Below, one piece after another: positions 318 through 27,627 of a stretch of 33,530 nucleotides of DNA (positions are counted from its first letter, which is position 1; each line of letters begins with the position of its first letter). Below the pieces are notes generated by a model. That model was not told where the DNA came from and searched no databases. It was given only the letters and a program-made list of their open reading frames with translations. The translations under genes were made by a program, and so were the position numbers. Source of the stretch: an uncultured Clostridia bacterium (lineage in GTDB: Bacteria; Bacillota; Clostridia; Oscillospirales; Ruminococcaceae); NCBI GenBank assembly GCA_948465665.1, contig CAOJXI010000003.1:1-33530 (forward strand), written 5' to 3'.

Positions 318-779
318 ATGAGTTTAGGAACCCATTTATTTTATGCAAGGAAAAACAAAGGGTTATCCCAAGAAATAGTTGCAGAAAAACTTGGGGTAAG
401 CAGACAGACAATTTCCAAATGGGAAACAGATGAAACCCTGCCGGATATTCAGCAGTCAAAAAGATTAGCAGTGATGTATAACCTGACATTAGACGAGTTA
501 ATCGACTTTGATATTGACGTAAAGGAAATACAAAACGCCATTGACAGGACAAGCCAGGAAGTAACCGATAAAGTTGACTGGACAAAAGCATGGGGCAAAA
601 AATACCCGATTCTGATACAATACCAAAAGGAGGTTGAAACCGCACCTTATAGGGCGGAATTAGAAAAGCTGCTGGATGATTTGCAGAAAAGATATGGATA
701 TGATGAATTAAACGCTTTTCTGGTTCTCAAGGATATCCTTGCATCTGTCTGGAAAAGCAGGAAGGAAATCCAGAAATAG
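318..779 (+). CDS. XRE-family helix-turn-helix transcriptional regulator
   Basis: HTH motif 'ARKNKGLSQEIVAEKLGVSRQTISKWETDETLPDIQQSKRLAVMYNLTLDELI'; RBS taggagg upstream of ATG 318 (the ORF-track start at 237 lies inside a repeat). Confidence 0.85.
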   Translation: MSLGTHLFYARKNKGLSQEIVAEKLGVSRQTISKWETDETLPDIQQSKRLAVMYNLTLDELIDFDIDVKEIQNAIDRTSQEVTDKVDWTKAWGKKYPILIQYQKEVETAPYRAELEKLLDDLQKRYGYDELNAFLVLKDILASVWKSRKEIQK

Positions 780-790
780 TTAGAATGTAG

Positions 791-826
791 GCGGCGGCTA
801 CCCAGTATGGGCAGCCGCCGTTAAAA
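791..826. terminator. Bidirectional intrinsic terminator between convergent genes
   Basis: Hairpin GCGGCGGCTaCCC-agta-TGGGcAGCCGCCG between convergent stop codons at 779 and 821. Confidence 0.6.
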
Positions 827-1732
827 AATAAATATATTGGGATCAATTTTTTCAAGCCGGCGGTACCCTCGGTTCAAAAGAGCTGTATCATTACGGCGAT
901 TTCCCAAAAGTATCTGCTGTAAAGGCCAGTAAGCGTCGTTAAGTTCCGCTTTCCTTTCTGCAATACTTGGATGGGGATGGCCGTAATGCCGCAGTACCTT
1001 CCTGCCAAATTCCTTTCCAAAATCATCTTCGCTGCAATCAAGGATACATAAAAAGTCATTATCAGGGTCTCCAACTGCAAAATCCCCGAAATCAATTACA
1101 CCATACAGACGTTTGTTTTGAAAAACCATATTATCCGAGCTGAAATCGTTGTGGACAAGACAGGGATTATACTGGAACAATTCCCTGCTTGATAAAAGGT
1201 TATCATATATTTTGCTTATCTTTGTATGTAAGAAAGAGGATAATAGACCTTTATCTTTTAAAGCAGTACATAGGTAAGTATATTCCTGGTTAAAGCGCTG
1301 GCTTTTATCCTCAACAACATCCTGGAATATTCCGCAGGAAATATCAATTTTAATCTGATGAAGTTCCTGGAGGAATTGGGCCTCATCGCTGGCTAACGCT
1401 TCCTTCTCCCTCTCAGTTAGAGTTTTATACATTTGGAAAGAAACAGGCTCCCCAGGAAGGAACGTCATAATATTGAACTGTTCACCCTGATAAACAGTTC
1501 TGGGCGTTTGGAAGGAAAGATGCTGGCGGCTAAGGAAACGATACAGGCTGAATTCCCTCTGTTGGGCAGCATGTACTTCCCTTCGTTTTGGAATTTTAGC
1601 TACAAACTGGCCGCCGCACAGCAGCACATCGCTGTCATCGCCTGACGCAAGATATTGTATTTTATCCACCTGAAATCCTAATTGGTTTAATACAGAGCGG
1701 ATTTCATAAAATTCATCCTGATAATTCAACAT
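821..1732 (-). CDS. Phosphotransferase family protein (APH-like kinase fold)
   Basis: Motifs 'CLVHNDFSSDNMVF' and 'YGVIDFGDFAVGDPDNDF' (APH HxDxxxxN / DFG-like). Start set at MLNYQDEF to avoid overlap with the upstream gene. Confidence 0.8.
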   Translation of the reverse strand: MLNYQDEFYEIRSVLNQLGFQVDKIQYLASGDDSDVLLCGGQFVAKIPKRREVHAAQQREFSLYRFLSRQHLSFQTPRTVYQGEQFNIMTFLPGEPVSFQMYKTLTEREKEALASDEAQFLQELHQIKIDISCGIFQDVVEDKSQRFNQEYTYLCTALKDKGLLSSFLHTKISKIYDNLLSSRELFQYNPCLVHNDFSSDNMVFQNKRLYGVIDFGDFAVGDPDNDFLCILDCSEDDFGKEFGRKVLRHYGHPHPSIAERKAELNDAYWPLQQILLGNRRNDTALLNRGYRRLEKIDPNIFIF

Positions 1733-1742
1733 TGTAAAATAC

Positions 1743-2246
1743 CTACAACTGGCATAAAAACAGCCTGTCCAAAAAACGAATTCCCGCCTGGGTGCGAAAA
1801 TACTTTTCCCGCGCCGTCCTAACGGCGTCCTCGCCGCGGTTTCCTTCATCAAGGTTTACCAAAAAGTCGGCTTCCACTAAAATTTGAAAATCCATTCCGT
1901 CGATAGCGGTATAAGTGTGATGATGCCCTACCAAAAAACTAACCCGTTCTGCCGTCTGTTCAGAAAAACCCAAAGACAGCAGCATTTCCCGCGCTGGGGC
2001 AATTCCCTCTTTTTCCTGATAAGGGCCGTCATGGCAGCCGAATTTCTCCTCAGCAGGCTTAATGCCAATATCATGGACAACCGCTGCTGTTTCCAAGGTA
2101 AAGCGGGTGTTTTCGTTCAGTCCTTCCAGCTCGCCTATGGTTTTGGCATACCCCCAGACTTTGAGAAAATGATTAATCCGTTTAGGGTTTCCAGCCTCCC
2201 AGTCAGCCATTTTATCAATCAACCGGGATATTTTTTGAAAATCCAT
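1743..2246 (-). CDS. HD domain-containing phosphohydrolase-like protein
   Basis: 'ETAAVVHDIGI' HD motif with preceding 'RINHFLKVWGYA' and later 'GHHHTY'. Confidence 0.8.
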   Translation of the reverse strand: MDFQKISRLIDKMADWEAGNPKRINHFLKVWGYAKTIGELEGLNENTRFTLETAAVVHDIGIKPAEEKFGCHDGPYQEKEGIAPAREMLLSLGFSEQTAERVSFLVGHHHTYTAIDGMDFQILVEADFLVNLDEGNRGEDAVRTAREKYFRTQAGIRFLDRLFLCQL

Positions 2247-2282
2247 CCTACATATGCTCCTTTCCTGATTTTATCCATTTTA

Positions 2283-2846
2283 TCATAAGCTGAAAAAGCT
2301 GATGATTTCCTCAGCGCTGACAGGTTTCATGATGTTGGCATCAACCCCAACATCATAGCGAAGAACCCCCTGTCTCCGGTTCTGCTCATTATAATCCCTA
2401 TGGTTATGCTGGTGTCCATGGAGGGAAATGCTTCCCCTGAAAAACCCGTTCCATTCCATAATGGGATAGTGGAATAAAATGAATCTTGTATTGCATACCT
2501 CGATTTCAGCATAATCCTGTATAGAAGTAAACAGGGATTGGTTAAAAGAGGGGTTGTCTGCAAAACGGTCATGGTTTCCCCGTATCAGGTGTTTGGTTCC
2601 TTTTAGTTCAGAGAGGGTTTCCATTGCAAGGCTTGGCCCCTTCATGGTAAAATCCCCTAAAATATAAACTTCGTCCTGAAAATCAACAAGCTGGTTCCAG
2701 TTTTTAATTAGGGCTTGATCCATCTGTTCGATATTTTGGAAAGGGCGTTTTGTGTGCCTGATAATATTTTCATGATGGAAATGCAGGTCTGACGTAAAAT
2801 ATACCAACTGTTTTCCCAGCCTTTCTTTTAACCTGATATATAACAT
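2283..2846 (-). CDS. Metallophosphoesterase (calcineurin-like)
   Basis: 'FTSDLHFHHENII', 'YILGDFT', 'LIRGNHDRF', 'SLHGHQHNH' motifs. Confidence 0.85.
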   Translation of the reverse strand: MLYIRLKERLGKQLVYFTSDLHFHHENIIRHTKRPFQNIEQMDQALIKNWNQLVDFQDEVYILGDFTMKGPSLAMETLSELKGTKHLIRGNHDRFADNPSFNQSLFTSIQDYAEIEVCNTRFILFHYPIMEWNGFFRGSISLHGHQHNHRDYNEQNRRQGVLRYDVGVDANIMKPVSAEEIISFFSL

Positions 2847-2947
2847 AATACATTTTCAGGGTTTAAGCAAGTTAAAATGGACGCATTGACAAACTTTTTT
2901 AGAAATGGTAGTCTAATTTTATAAATTAGTATAGAAGGGATGGTTTT

Positions 2948-4111
2948 ATGGGACTTTTTTTGCAGGCAGCCCTATTTCCCGGCGGGGATATTTCTAAATG
3001 CCAGGAAGCGCTTGAGCAGTGTTCCCGCGACCCGCGGTTGTCTGTCCAAACAGATGGATGCCGCTGGAGCCAATATCCAAAGGGGTCAGCAGTTCTTTTG
3101 AACAACGACTGCTGCGATTATGAATCCCTTGCAGATAAACTTTCCCGTTTGCTGGATGTTCCTGTTATGTTATTATATATCTATGACGGCGATTACTGGG
3201 GCTATTTTCTCTGGAAAGACGGAACAAAAGAAGACGAATTCGCCAGCCTTTCCGACTATTTCAGGGAAGGCGAGCCGCCCAACAAATCGGGGGATGCCAA
3301 AAGGGTAAGCCAATATTTTAAAGTGAAGCCAGAGGACATAGAACGTTACCTTATCCCTTGGCCCGATGATGAGACAGAAGATCACGCTTATAAGGACGAT
3401 GAAGCTGTAATTGGTGATAGCTGGCAGATGGCGGATTTTATGAAAGCCTTGGGGTTTGACTATGACCAGCTTTGTCCGCCTGAACCAGAACCCGACCCGG
3501 AACCAGCCGCCGCCCCTATACAGCAAAAGAAACCTTGTATTATATACAATAATGCCCAGCCAATAGATACCCCTGTCCTGCCAAATGCCCTTACGGATCG
3601 AAAATATGCCCTCAAATGGGTAAAGGAGCTTGGGACAGAACATACAGAGGTTATCCAGGCCCTGCAAAGCAGAAAGTATAAAAGCGCGGTTCCTCTGCTT
3701 ACAGAAGCAATCCAGGCTTATCCCAACACCCCCGCTTTATACCTTCTCCGCGCTTTCTGCTGGAACCAATTGGAGGGGCTGAACCATGGGATGAGCCGCA
3801 AACCCGATATGGATCGGGATTTGACGAAATTCCTAGAGTTTGAACCGGATGACATCATGGCGCTGCGTGCCCGGTGCCCTACTGCGGCGACTACTTCCCG
3901 CTATCAGCGGCATATTTCGGATTTGACCAGGTTAATAGAGCTTGACCCGGAAAATATTGATCTTTACCAGTTGGATCGCGCTTACCGGTATCATTGGGTA
4001 GGGGATGACGATGCCGCCCGCAGGGATTTGGAGGATATTTTGCAGCGCGGGGAACTTTGGACTGTGGATTTAGTTTATCTTTGCAGGGCGTTTGGATTTG
4101 AAATGTCTTGA
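2948..4111 (+). CDS. Hypothetical protein with C-terminal TPR-like repeats
   Basis: 387-aa ORF with RBS (agaaggga); C-terminal helices 'AVPLLTEAIQAYPNTPALYLLRAFCWNQLE', 'HISDLTRLIELDPENIDLYQLDRAYRY' look TPR-like. Confidence 0.7.
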   Translation: MGLFLQAALFPGGDISKCQEALEQCSRDPRLSVQTDGCRWSQYPKGSAVLLNNDCCDYESLADKLSRLLDVPVMLLYIYDGDYWGYFLWKDGTKEDEFASLSDYFREGEPPNKSGDAKRVSQYFKVKPEDIERYLIPWPDDETEDHAYKDDEAVIGDSWQMADFMKALGFDYDQLCPPEPEPDPEPAAAPIQQKKPCIIYNNAQPIDTPVLPNALTDRKYALKWVKELGTEHTEVIQALQSRKYKSAVPLLTEAIQAYPNTPALYLLRAFCWNQLEGLNHGMSRKPDMDRDLTKFLEFEPDDIMALRARCPTAATTSRYQRHISDLTRLIELDPENIDLYQLDRAYRYHWVGDDDAARRDLEDILQRGELWTVDLVYLCRAFGFEMS

Positions 4112-5537: not shown

Positions 5538-6748
5538 GGAAGAAAAAAGGAGCGGGAGTTTTTTCGGAAATGAAGCGCCTGCGGGTTCCCTATGTAATTG
5601 TTATGGCGGCAAGCCTGTTCGCAGGGCTCCTTACAGGGATGCGGGTGTATTTTCTAATCTTCTATGTCCAGCTTTTTCTTCTGGTATTCTGCATTGCAGT
5701 TATTGTTTATACAGTTGCGTCTTTTGCATATTTACAGACAATCAGCCAGGAAGAGGCCGTAAAAGGGGATACTGTCCATCTTCATTTGGAAATACATAAT
5801 GAAAAGCCATACCCGTTTACCATGATGCAGGTGCATGTTCAGGCAGTATCCAGCAGGGAAAACAGGGTGCTTTCATTTCATCTTGCCCCAAAAGCGTCTA
5901 TTAGTTTTGATTTGCCAGTTGCCTGCCAGTGGCGCGGGGAAACCGGTATTGGGATGAGTGTGGTTGAACTGCGGGATATGTTTGGACTGGTACATATTTA
6001 TTTTCCTTTAAATTTCCTTCCCTATTACCGCCCCAGACGGCTGCTGGTATTTCCAAAGGCGGAAAAATTATCTTTAAGTATGGTAGGGAACCCCCGCCGC
6101 CTTCAGGTAAGGGGAGCCCTTACCCAGCCGTCGGATTCCGGCAATGATTTATACGGATTACAGGATTATCGGCCGGGGGATACCGACCGCCAGATTCATT
6201 GGAAGGTTTCAGCTGCCCATAACGCTTTATATACAAAATGGTATGAACGGGAAGCCCGCCCCCAGTGTATTATTTTGATTGACGATTGTATGCCCTTTTC
6301 CGGGGAAGAAGGAAAAGTAGCTGCTGACCTTCTCTGCTGTACGGCTGCTTCCCTGTCCAGATGGGCTTTGTCCCATCAAAATGGGGTTTTGCTTTGCGCA
6401 GGCTCCCCTCATATTCCCAAGGTACAAGGCGAAAGCTTCCAGGATTATTCAATGATACAGCAATGGCTTGCCCTGCTTCCTTTTGAGGGGCAAGGGGGGA
6501 TGTCCGGCGAAAATATCAGTTCAGAACTGGCTGGGGGCTTTGCCGCAGGGCTTCCTGTTTATCTGCTTACTGCTTCGCCGTCCTTGCTTGCCAATGTAAT
6601 GAATGTAATCATTCAGCGCGGGGCGCAGATGGTTTGCATATGGGCCGCCATGTCCCCTGGAGAACGTCCCTCTTTTCCTGACGGCGTTTTGGATATTCCA
6701 ATGGAACCTGGCTGTAATATTGGCACAAGATTGGGGGAACGGTTATGA
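5534..6748 (+). CDS. DUF58 domain-containing protein
   Basis: 'GLQDYRPGDTDRQIHWKVSAAHNALYTKWYEREARPQCIILIDD' DUF58 core; ATGA overlap with the MoxR gene. Confidence 0.9.
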   Translation: MRKKKGAGVFSEMKRLRVPYVIVMAASLFAGLLTGMRVYFLIFYVQLFLLVFCIAVIVYTVASFAYLQTISQEEAVKGDTVHLHLEIHNEKPYPFTMMQVHVQAVSSRENRVLSFHLAPKASISFDLPVACQWRGETGIGMSVVELRDMFGLVHIYFPLNFLPYYRPRRLLVFPKAEKLSLSMVGNPRRLQVRGALTQPSDSGNDLYGLQDYRPGDTDRQIHWKVSAAHNALYTKWYEREARPQCIILIDDCMPFSGEEGKVAADLLCCTAASLSRWALSHQNGVLLCAGSPHIPKVQGESFQDYSMIQQWLALLPFEGQGGMSGENISSELAGGFAAGLPVYLLTASPSLLANVMNVIIQRGAQMVCIWAAMSPGERPSFPDGVLDIPMEPGCNIGTRLGERL

Positions 6749-10405: not shown

Positions 10406-10490
10406 GCCGCTATGGCGGAACTGGCAGACGCAAGGGACTTAAAATCCCTCGGTTGAATAAACCGTACCGGTTCGATTCCGGTTAGCGGCA
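10406..10490 (+). tRNA. tRNA-Leu (anticodon TAA)
   Basis: Acceptor GCCGCTA/TAGCGGC, anticodon arm AGGGA-CTTAAAA-TCCCT, long variable arm, T-arm CCGGTTCGATTCCGG; no encoded CCA. Confidence 0.95.
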
Positions 10491-23876: not shown

Positions 23877-24599
23877 TTACAATACTTTAGACAGGAAATC
23901 TTTTAATCTTGGGTGCTGCGGATTTGCAAAAAACGCATTAGGTTCATTCTGTTCCACAATTACGCCGCCGTCCATAAAGAGCACCCTTGTTCCCACTTCC
24001 CTTGCAAATCCCATCTCATGTGTAACAACAACCATCGTCATACCTTCATCCGCCAGTTCACGCATCAATTCCAATACTTCCCCTACCATTTCAGGATCCA
24101 GCGCGCTGGTAGGTTCATCAAACAGGATAACATCCGGGTTCATTGCCAACGCCCTAACAATAGCAATCCTTTGTTTTTGTCCGCCGGAGATGCTGCTGGG
24201 GTATACGTCCGCCTTATCCGACAAGCCGATTCTCTCCAGTAATTTCCGGGCTTTTTCCTCTGCCTCATCTTTAGTCTGTCTCTTTAATGTCACAGGAGCC
24301 AAAGTAATATTTTGTAAAACCGTCAAATGGGGGAACAGGTTAAAGTGTTGGAAAACCATGCCCATTTTGCACCGTACCGCGTCAATGTTGGTGCCTTTTG
24401 CAGTAATGTTCTTTCCCTCAAACCAAATTTCCCCGCCAGTGGGGGACTCCAGTAAATTCAAACACCGCAGAAAGGTAGACTTCCCCGAACCGGATGGCCC
24501 AATTACAACAACCTTTTCACTCTTTTGGATTGTCTCGGTAATTCCATTTAGAACAACATTGTCGCCAAATTGTTTGGTAAGGTTTTTAACTTCTATCAC
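23877..24599 (-). CDS. Polar amino acid ABC transporter, ATP-binding protein
   Basis: '[18 protein letters not shown]', '[41 protein letters not shown]'; GTG start ([12 protein letters not shown]). Confidence 0.95.
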
Positions 24600-25257
24600 T
24601 TTTCGCCAGTCTCCTTTCCAGGCGGCTGAAAATCTTTTCCAGCCCAAGGGTCATTATCAGATAAATAAGGGCTACTGTAAAAAGCGGAACCCATGGATTA
24701 TAAGTAGCGTTGCGGATCATATCCCCGGCCTTGGTCAAATCAGTAACAGCAATAAAGCTTGCCACTGACGTTTCTTTAATCAGTGCAATAAATTCGCTGG
24801 TGTAGGTGGGCAAAACTGCTTTAATAGCCTGAGGCAGAATAATCTTCCATAAGGTTTGGCTGTAAGAAAGCCCCAAAGAACGCCCGGCTTCCATTTGGCC
24901 CTTGTCTACCCCCTGGATGCCCGCCCGGAAAATTTCAGTGCAATATGCGCCGGAGTTTATCCCGAAGGCAAGGCTTGCCACCATAATTTCGTTTTTGCCG
25001 GAAAAGATAACAAAGCCGAATATCATTAACTGTGTCACCATGGGAATTCCCCGGATAATCGTAGTATATAAGTTTGCAAACCATCGCAGCGGCTTGATGG
25101 TGGATATTTTCATCAGTGCAAACAAACACCCCAGAATCGTTCCTATGATGATTGCAAAGAAAGCAATTTCAATGGTTTTTCCCAAACCGCTGAGAATAAC
25201 CTTCCATCCTTCGTTGGCAATCAGCACCCGGTTGATTACCTGAAAAAAATTGTTCAT
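24586..25257 (-). CDS. Polar amino acid ABC transporter, permease
   Basis: '[17 protein letters not shown]', '[57 protein letters not shown]'. Confidence 0.93.
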
Positions 25258-25291
25258 TCCGAATTGATGCCCTCCCTCTGTAAATATGCTA

Positions 25292-25320
25292 ATAAGGACG
25301 GCCAAAGGCCGTCCTTAAAA
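25292..25320 (-). terminator. Hairpin between binding-protein gene and permease gene (possible partial terminator)
   Basis: TAAGGACGGCC-aaa-GGCCGTCCTTA. Confidence 0.6.
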
Positions 25321-25342
25321 CAGCGGAAATACCCAGAAACCT

Positions 25343-26134
25343 TTATTTTCTGTAAATGATTACCTGCTTAGAATTAAAATAGGTATCAGAAAAGCTTACT
25401 TCCTGCAAACGTTCCTCTGTAATGGTCATACCTGCGGCAATCATGTCAATGTTGCCGGATTGGAGCGCCATAATTAAACCGTCAAAAGCCATGTTGGTAA
25501 TTTCCAGCTTTTTCCCGTTATCTGCCGCAATTTCCCGGCACATGGCAATGTCAAAACCTACTACGTCGGTTCCGTCCAGAAATTCAAAGGGAGGGAATTC
25601 TGCATTGGTACCCATTTTAATAACGTCTGTATTATTTGCGGACTTGTCCTCTAATTCTTTCCATTTGCCGGAAGCAATGGTATCAAGCAGGGTATTATAG
25701 GTATCTCCCTGTTTGATTTTTTCAAGGGATGCGTTGATTTGTTCCAGTAAAGCAGTATCTTCTTTGCGTACTGCAATAGCGTATTCCTCAGCTTCCAAAC
25801 CGGGATCGAATATGGTAAAGGTATCGTTTTCCGCTACAATGGATTCAGCGGGAAGCTCGTCAATAATGATGCAGTCAATGTTGCCTGCCTTCAATGCTAA
25901 CGCTGCATCCATGCCGGAACGGTAGCCTTTTACATTGTTGTCGGGGTCGCTGCTGTTTTCCTTGGCAATGCCTTCCCCTGTCGTGCCGGATTGTACGCCG
26001 ATTTTCAGGCTTGCGATATCTGCCAGGCTGGAAATTTCAATTTTGGGCAGGTTGTTCCCGCTGCATCCTGACAGCATACCAGCGGAAATTACCGCCGCCA
26101 TGAAAAACGCGCCTGCTTTTTTTAACATATTCAT
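25343..26134 (-). CDS. Amino acid ABC transporter substrate-binding lipoprotein with circularly permuted lobes
   Basis: Lipobox 'GMLSGCSG', then lobe-2-type sequence followed by lobe-1-type sequence ending 'FSDTYFNSKQVIIYRK*'. Confidence 0.9.
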   Translation of the reverse strand: MNMLKKAGAFFMAAVISAGMLSGCSGNNLPKIEISSLADIASLKIGVQSGTTGEGIAKENSSDPDNNVKGYRSGMDAALALKAGNIDCIIIDELPAESIVAENDTFTIFDPGLEAEEYAIAVRKEDTALLEQINASLEKIKQGDTYNTLLDTIASGKWKELEDKSANNTDVIKMGTNAEFPPFEFLDGTDVVGFDIAMCREIAADNGKKLEITNMAFDGLIMALQSGNIDMIAAGMTITEERLQEVSFSDTYFNSKQVIIYRK

Positions 26135-26388: not shown

Positions 26389-27627
26389 CTATGGGCCGCT
26401 GGGATCAAAATACCCGCTGTATTTAATGTCTTCAACAACATCTCCTCCTGTTCCAGATACCATATGGATGCTGGAACGGAGGATTTTATCCAGCCTTTGG
26501 ATTCTATTCCGCAAAGCATTTGCTATAGCTCTGCGGCGGTTTTCATCCAAAAACAGAGAATTTTTGGTGAGTTCCATCCACTCATCTTCAATGTTATCCA
26601 ACTTTTCCAGTTCCAGCCAGTCAAAAGAGGAAACCAATTTTATTTGCTCTTCGTGGCTGGTCTTAAATGGCTTGCAGACTGCTTTCACACTGCCAATCAT
26701 AGTGGCTGGTTTGTCAAACCAGAGGGATGTTCCGCTATCATAAATGGGGGCTGCGCCTGTATATTTCAGCGTTTCAGCATCACGCAGTACACCAAAATTG
26801 TTTTGGTGCCGATCCTCATTGAAAATGATGTAATCCAATACGATCATTTGATCCACTGCCAGTTGAATCCCAGGGATGCCCAAGGCGCTGCAGCAGTTCA
26901 GGTAATGTTGATGTATGGAAATATGATTGGGTTTTCTTTCAGTCTGCATGATATACCATGCAGTAATCAGTTCTGAGTCAGAAGTAATAAAGTCTTCGCA
27001 TAAACTGTATGGGTAGTCTTCCTGCACTGTCAAAGAGTATGATGTATGAGGAATCCCAAGGCGTTTCATAATGATGCTGGCAATGACCTCATTGTAGGGT
27101 TCCTGCTGGGTGGCGCCGCTGCCGCCTTTGAGTAAGCAGCGTTTTCCATCCGCAATGACCCACTTCTTCTTCAGCCAGCCATCCGAAGTGTTGTCCGGCG
27201 ACATCATGTTCATTCTTTCGCTGGACGGGCCCCGGCCAAAAAGGATATTTCCCACATCGTCGGAAAAATCATTTTGGAAGAAATTAATGTCCTCCCACTG
27301 GATGTTTTCCGATACCGGGCATATCCAATATTGATCCGATAGGCTGAGCCCCAGACATTTTTCCAAAAGGAGCTGTGTGCTGGACACGCCCAGTTTTTTG
27401 AGCGCATCCTGGATGCGGTCACGGCTGGCAGGGATTGCCCTTCCAGCCCACCATGAATTAAGCGCTTGCCGGTCTGCAATCCCATTTTTTACAGGTATTC
27501 CAACCGGGATGTGTTCCGGGTTCTTTATCGTGCCAATGGAACGAATCACCCCCGTGGCGCCGTCTAACTGGATATCGGCAGCAGGGATATGCTTGTGCAT
27601 TAGGATATAATTTCTGTTTGCCACCAT
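26389..27627 (-). CDS. HipA-like C-terminal domain protein kinase
   Basis: 'WVIADGKRCLLKGGSG...EPYNEVIASIIMKRLGI', 'DYIIFNEDRHQNNFGVLRD', 'APIYDSGTSLW' kinase-type motifs. Confidence 0.75.
   Translation of the reverse strand: MVANRNYILMHKHIPAADIQLDGATGVIRSIGTIKNPEHIPVGIPVKNGIADRQALNSWWAGRAIPASRDRIQDALKKLGVSSTQLLLEKCLGLSLSDQYWICPVSENIQWEDINFFQNDFSDDVGNILFGRGPSSERMNMMSPDNTSDGWLKKKWVIADGKRCLLKGGSGATQQEPYNEVIASIIMKRLGIPHTSYSLTVQEDYPYSLCEDFITSDSELITAWYIMQTERKPNHISIHQHYLNCCSALGIPGIQLAVDQMIVLDYIIFNEDRHQNNFGVLRDAETLKYTGAAPIYDSGTSLWFDKPATMIGSVKAVCKPFKTSHEEQIKLVSSFDWLELEKLDNIEDEWMELTKNSLFLDENRRRAIANALRNRIQRLDKILRSSIHMVSGTGGDVVEDIKYSGYFDPSGP

Follow-up and report, generated by a model that had tools for sequence, protein, structure and literature searches.

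A probably functional, circularly permuted amino-acid-binding lipoprotein and its permuted relatives in Clostridia

The window analysed here is a stretch of 33,530 nt from an uncultured Clostridia bacterium of the Ruminococcaceae. It carries on its reverse strand a transporter operon that encodes a substrate-binding lipoprotein, here called P0001, followed by a permease and an ATPase. The features of the locus, with the basis on which each was assigned, are the following.

25343..26134 (stop included), (-): CDS of the circularly permuted substrate-binding lipoprotein P0001 (263 aa); the same full-length protein occurs in L001 and L002
26063..26134, (-): signal peptide and lipobox, residues 1-24 (AGMLSGC, with Cys24 as the putative lipidated residue); read from the sequence
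25826..26038, (-): lobe 2a, residues 33-103, N-terminal in mature P0001 and holding D92; HMM segment mapping and rotated GlnH alignment
25670..25825, (-): segment 1b, residues 104-155, comprising the end of lobe 2, the second crossover strand (EEYAIAVRK) and two lobe-1 helices; segment HMMs, AlphaFold model and rotated alignment
25625..25669, (-): linker, residues 156-170, bridging the former termini (C to N) within lobe 1; defined by the flanking segments
25346..25624, (-): lobe 1a, residues 171-263, C-terminal, holding R242 and ending with the first crossover strand (QVIIYRK); Pfam, segment HMMs and rotated alignment
25255..25350, (-): RNA hairpin AAGGACGGCC-TTT-GGCCGTCCTT between the binding-protein and permease genes; predicted fold of -30.7 kcal/mol, z -3.26
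24586..25257, (-): permease gene of the standard polar-amino-acid type (BPD_transp_1); domain matches
23877..24599, (-): GlnQ/TcyN-like ATPase gene, whose GTG start overlaps the permease stop; domain matches

The gene order P0001-permease-ATPase is that of E. coli glnHPQ, and the domain matches agree with an earlier, sequence-only reading of this DNA (the preliminary description), according to which the partner permease and ATPase are standard. The hairpin is strong, has a perfect 10-bp-class stem, is without a clear T-tract and may act on stability or stoichiometry. The gene immediately upstream of the operon, 26389-27627 (-), encodes a protein of 412 aa whose match to HipA_C lies below threshold (23.1 bits against a cut-off of 30.5). 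A tRNA gene at 10406-10490 (+) is the sole Rfam match in the window, and L002 has a tRNA at 6423-6511. P0001 holds one copy each of segments 1a, 2a and 1b; no further segment copy lies within the window, and two more SBP_bac_3 genes are found elsewhere in the genome.

With glnHPQ of E. coli K-12 as the reference, the segments of P0001 follow each other as 2a-1b-linker-1a, while those of E. coli GlnH are arranged as 1a-2a-1b. Residues 172-263 match positions 1-92 of the Pfam profile SBP_bac_3 (115.9 bits; cut-off 26.4), and in a phmmer search against PDB chains two stretches of P0001 matched T. maritima ArgBP and the reconstructed protein AncQR in reversed order; for 6svf, residues 172-263 fall on positions 12-104 of the chain and residues 38-151 on positions 114-224. 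The rotated P0001 sequence aligns with GlnH with a score of 276 over 218 positions, 69 of which are identical (32%). In the native order lobe 1a alone aligns, with a score of 174, the maximum in 200 shuffles being 57. The swapped halves that the preliminary description had read in this SBP_bac_3 protein are borne out by Pfam, phmmer, the segment HMMs and the rotated alignment, and its ORF, coordinates and quoted sequence are all exact. Standard GlnH, HisJ and ArgBP (SBP_bac_3, cluster F) thus share with P0001 the same segments, the same ligand-anchor residues and the same glnHPQ-like gene order, but differ from it in chain order (1a-2a-1b versus 2a-1b-1a).

In the standard fold, the polypeptide passes from one lobe to the other twice. 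The preliminary description had placed the breakpoint at the inter-lobe crossover, which holds for the first of these two crossovers, but it had assigned the C-terminal helices LLEQINASLEKIKQGDTYNTLL to lobe 2. In GlnBP these helices are part of lobe 1, its large and discontinuous domain, and the cut in P0001 therefore falls at the first of the two crossovers. The two lobe-1 helices of segment 1b in P0001 are accordingly those that terminate standard proteins.

An AlphaFold2 model of mature P0001, calculated with 62 permuted homologues, reached a pLDDT of 95.1 and a pTM of 0.87, figures to be read with the caveat that the family fold may be reproduced whatever the chain order. In this model the secondary-structure elements occur in rotated order, and segment 1b completes the same lobe as 1a. 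When the model was compared with the PDB by Foldseek, which keeps sequence order, the overlays covered lobe 1a only (84-86 columns, 1.0-1.4 A, 51-53% identity; 4prs, 6ggp and 4zv1). Longer Foldseek matches to OpuAC, EgtU and HisG had low identity, a TM of about 0.4-0.56 and an rmsd of 6-9 A; we rejected these proteins as relatives of P0001 and regard the matches as probable pseudo-symmetric overlays.

The residues that hold the alpha-carboxylate and the alpha-ammonium group in GlnBP are R75 and D157, the contact residues being named here from established structural knowledge. In the rotated alignment their equivalents in P0001 are R242 and D92, and neither position varies among 62 proteins of the 2a-1b-1a order or among 18 of the 1b-1a-2a type introduced below. 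Identical residues are found in P0001 at the GlnBP contacts F13, F50, A67, G68, T70, R75 and D157, while D10, K115, G119 and H156 are replaced by N, Q, T and I. As the two anchor residues are kept and invariant, the ligand is likely an alpha-amino acid, and all family matches of P0001 are SBP_bac_3 amino-acid proteins. The best NCBIfam models were those for lysine/arginine/ornithine-binding and glutamine-binding proteins, both far below their cut-offs, and a search of the locus and its relatives against Rfam returned tRNAs only, with no riboswitch or T-box to name the substrate.

The distribution of such proteins was followed with a profile of lobe 1b-linker-lobe 1a, which is matched in one piece by permuted or tandem proteins alone. 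Within the genus of the window the P0001 protein is present in three of four genomes. In the same GTDB family, full-length profile matches were found in at least about 95 of 398 sampled genomes, roughly a quarter, from dozens of genera; further matches came from other families within the order and from other members of the class. A phylum-wide sample of 399 genomes, searched at a stricter threshold, gave full-length matches in only three genomes beyond that of the window. Separate segment HMMs applied to the fetched DNA distinguished 95 distinct proteins of the order 2a-1b-1a, seven of the order 2a-1b-1a-permease, 18 of the order 1b-1a-2a and 76 standard ones, a tally that leaves out another 16 permuted loci, found in the class search, and reflects what was fetched, not true frequencies. 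A lipobox-like motif is present in most permuted relatives, and a permease ORF lies directly downstream on the same strand in 105 of the 115 permuted ORFs with enough flank, a count that takes in loci fetched more than once.

P0001 thus belongs to a large permuted group of the same class, which also contains fusions to the permease and proteins with a second rotation, 1b-1a-2a; in this rotation the cut lies within lobe 2, behind the PAKxFVxxNN helix. The second rotation is encoded at the following loci, and also at L124-L126 and L260-L265.

L003, 4001-4708
L004, 4001-4750
L005, 4001-4729
L006, 4001-4735

The hosts of these four are Oscillospiraceae and Clostridia MAGs, and in all four, where this was checked, permease and ATPase genes lie downstream. 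The AlphaFold model of the L004 protein had a pLDDT of 88.7 and a pTM of 0.80, and its segments 1a and 2a together overlay GlnBP and AncQR in Foldseek (2.2-2.3 A over 176-182 columns), which indicates that both lobes of the second rotation stand in their normal relation. A third cut is seen in L133 and L175, where the C terminus retains the first lobe-2 helix (SKIQSIDDL and TFDDCATAADVEEIL, respectively) and the N terminus starts at the next strand. The permease-fused proteins (L091 at 1036-2550 (+), L104, L105, L106, L142, L143 and L150) share the 2a-1b-1a order of P0001; in these the new C terminus at the hinge runs straight into the permease, whereas the permease of P0001 is a separate gene. 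At the N terminus of L091 a membrane-anchor-like stretch takes the place of the lipobox.

In L159-L163 (L159 at 533-3532 (+)) a permease is fused to an array of two or three binding domains, each of standard order. Such domains are often most closely related to others of their own array, suggesting that they were duplicated recently or underwent gene conversion. In tandems of this GlnPQ type (6h30; L159-L163) the permuted profile spans the junction of two units, but these proteins consist of two or three complete standard-order units plus a permease, whereas P0001 has one of each segment.

Several other explanations of the P0001 sequence have to be weighed. The draft genome of the window is fragmented (287 contigs; completeness 70%), so that pieces of two genes might have been joined in assembly or gene calling, and the preliminary description had itself named an assembly error as the finding that would speak against its reading. 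Such an error is excluded by the independent same-genus genomes L001 and L002, which encode the same 263-residue protein without gaps (84% and 81% identity), and about a hundred further distinct proteins in other genera have the segment order of P0001. Compared with the window gene, L001 and L002 gave pN values of 0.09-0.11 and pS values of 0.66-0.69; the resulting dN/dS of about 0.06, with dS near saturation, points to purifying selection, and an artefact of either kind can practically be dismissed. It is also highly improbable that P0001 depends for its function on domain swapping, in a dimer or array in which lobe 1a completes lobe 1 of another molecule: domain swapping is compatible with the sequence alone and tandem homologous units are known in relatives, but the single-chain model is confident throughout (see the pLDDT above), the linker need only bridge two ends of one lobe, and linkers are of similar length across the permuted group. 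A chimera, with lobe 2 and lobe 1 drawn from different binding-protein genes, might be read from the identity of P0001 to standard proteins, which is 51-57% in lobe 1a and 30-41% in 2a and 1b. Lobe 1a is, however, generally the more conserved part, and in the model 1b and 1a make up one lobe. Where a permuted protein has a very close standard partner, moreover, identity is even along the chain: L003 and L139 are 80.6% identical (79, 81 and 82% over the three segments) and L133 and L210 75.5% (73, 78 and 78%), with L139 or L210 as the nearest standard row for each segment, which argues for the rearrangement of one gene as opposed to a fusion of pieces of different genes. We consider a chimeric origin very unlikely. 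The reading as a circular permutation is supported by the segment order, the relatives in dozens of genera, the confident fold model, the kept ligand-anchor residues and the standard permease and ATPase.

How often the permutation arose was addressed in trees for which the segments had first been restored to standard order; these were quick searches giving unrooted trees with many weak branches. An alignment that combined complete permuted sequences with fragments of standard order paired the lobes wrongly and was left out. In the tree of 149 rows the chain orders are interleaved, with 11 order changes, although on an unrooted tree such counts cannot alone separate gain from return. A single event behind all permutants, followed by changes of the cut point and returns to standard order, would fit the result that proteins of the order 2a-1b-1a are not rejected as one clade when L133 is left aside (AU test, p=0.25) and that the 1b-1a-2a proteins are likewise not rejected (p=0.58), and the linkers of the two rotations are loosely alike (YINGVEG and YISGVEH). 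Against it stand the rejection of one clade of all permutants (p=2.1e-6), the different points at which the two rotations are cut, and L133, which is cut at a place of its own, retains SKIQSIDDL at the C-terminal end and clusters with standard proteins; with L133 included, one clade of 2a-1b-1a proteins is rejected as well (p=0.0025). A single origin is therefore unlikely, though it deserves more weight than the explanations dealt with above. Given the AU rejection of single permutant clades, the permutation most likely arose more than once.

The standard order was assumed to be ancestral, since the family members of known structure have it. The route from it was probably an in-frame tandem duplication followed by trimming of the ends. 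We infer this route as the most economical one from the tandem arrays in the same order of bacteria, which indicate that in-frame duplication does happen there, and from the profile that spans the GlnPQ junction. Among the segment-mapped proteins, tandem standard-order arrays were found but no direct duplication intermediate.

Taking together segment order, conservation, gene neighbourhood and predicted fold, P0001 is very probably a functional lipoprotein that binds amino acids for an ABC importer and is a natural circular permutant of type II (SBP_bac_3, cluster F). Its chain is cut at the first inter-lobe crossover strand, with a linker of ~15 residues joining the old C and N termini in lobe 1. 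Judging from the segment order and the GlnBP fold, both new termini would then lie at the hinge and the lobes would be joined by one covalent crossover instead of two, while the fold, the cleft and the anchors for the alpha-amino and alpha-carboxylate groups would be retained. We infer that P0001 binds an amino acid by Venus-flytrap closure, with its lipid anchor beside the hinge, and it would pass the amino acid to the neighbouring permease and ATPase. In the seven permease-fused relatives the hinge would tether the protein to its transporter. Both crossovers would, judging from the order and the known fold, be retained in the second rotation. On balance we favour the broader view that in this class one amino-acid-binding family occurs naturally in all three cyclic orders (1a-2a-1b, 2a-1b-1a and 1b-1a-2a), cut at three or more positions and permuted independently more than once, and that the hinge-cut form has a one-strand instead of a two-strand covalent hinge, with the hinge as the attachment site for a lipid anchor or a permease.

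The nearest precedent of P0001 is Tp0684/TpMglB-2 of Treponema pallidum, a naturally permuted type I, cluster B glucose-binding lipoprotein for which the terms 'Type Ic' and 'Cluster Bc' were proposed, which binds its ligand and changes conformation, and whose type has been reported in many Gram-positive gut bacteria (PMC4990184). Both proteins are natural permutants with a lipid anchor and adjoining ordinary permease and ATPase genes (PMC4990184). They differ in that the permutation of TpMglB-2 relocates three strands of a single lobe and creates a fourth crossover (PMC4990184), whereas P0001 is cut at a crossover and loses one covalent crossover; in that the permuted part of TpMglB-2 is poorly conserved (13%; PMC4990184), whereas the segments of P0001 are all clearly homologous; and in that TpMglB-2 is a type I sugar binder, P0001 a member of a type II amino-acid family. 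The best PDB sequence matches included no permuted chain, and in the literature, of which our coverage is incomplete, we found no description of natural permutation in the amino-acid SBP_bac_3 family. What is new here is apparently a separate, large and seemingly recurrent set of permutants in another type of binding protein than that of TpMglB-2.

For annotation these proteins present a hazard, as linear profiles cover them in part; Pfam accounts for 92 of the 263 residues of P0001. Circularly permuted binding proteins are also made by engineers for biosensors. The matched permuted and standard pairs, with identities of up to ~80% and two different cut sites, make the effect of chain order on folding, affinity and flytrap closure measurable, and the natural set of permutants offers a view of how permutations arise in real genomes.
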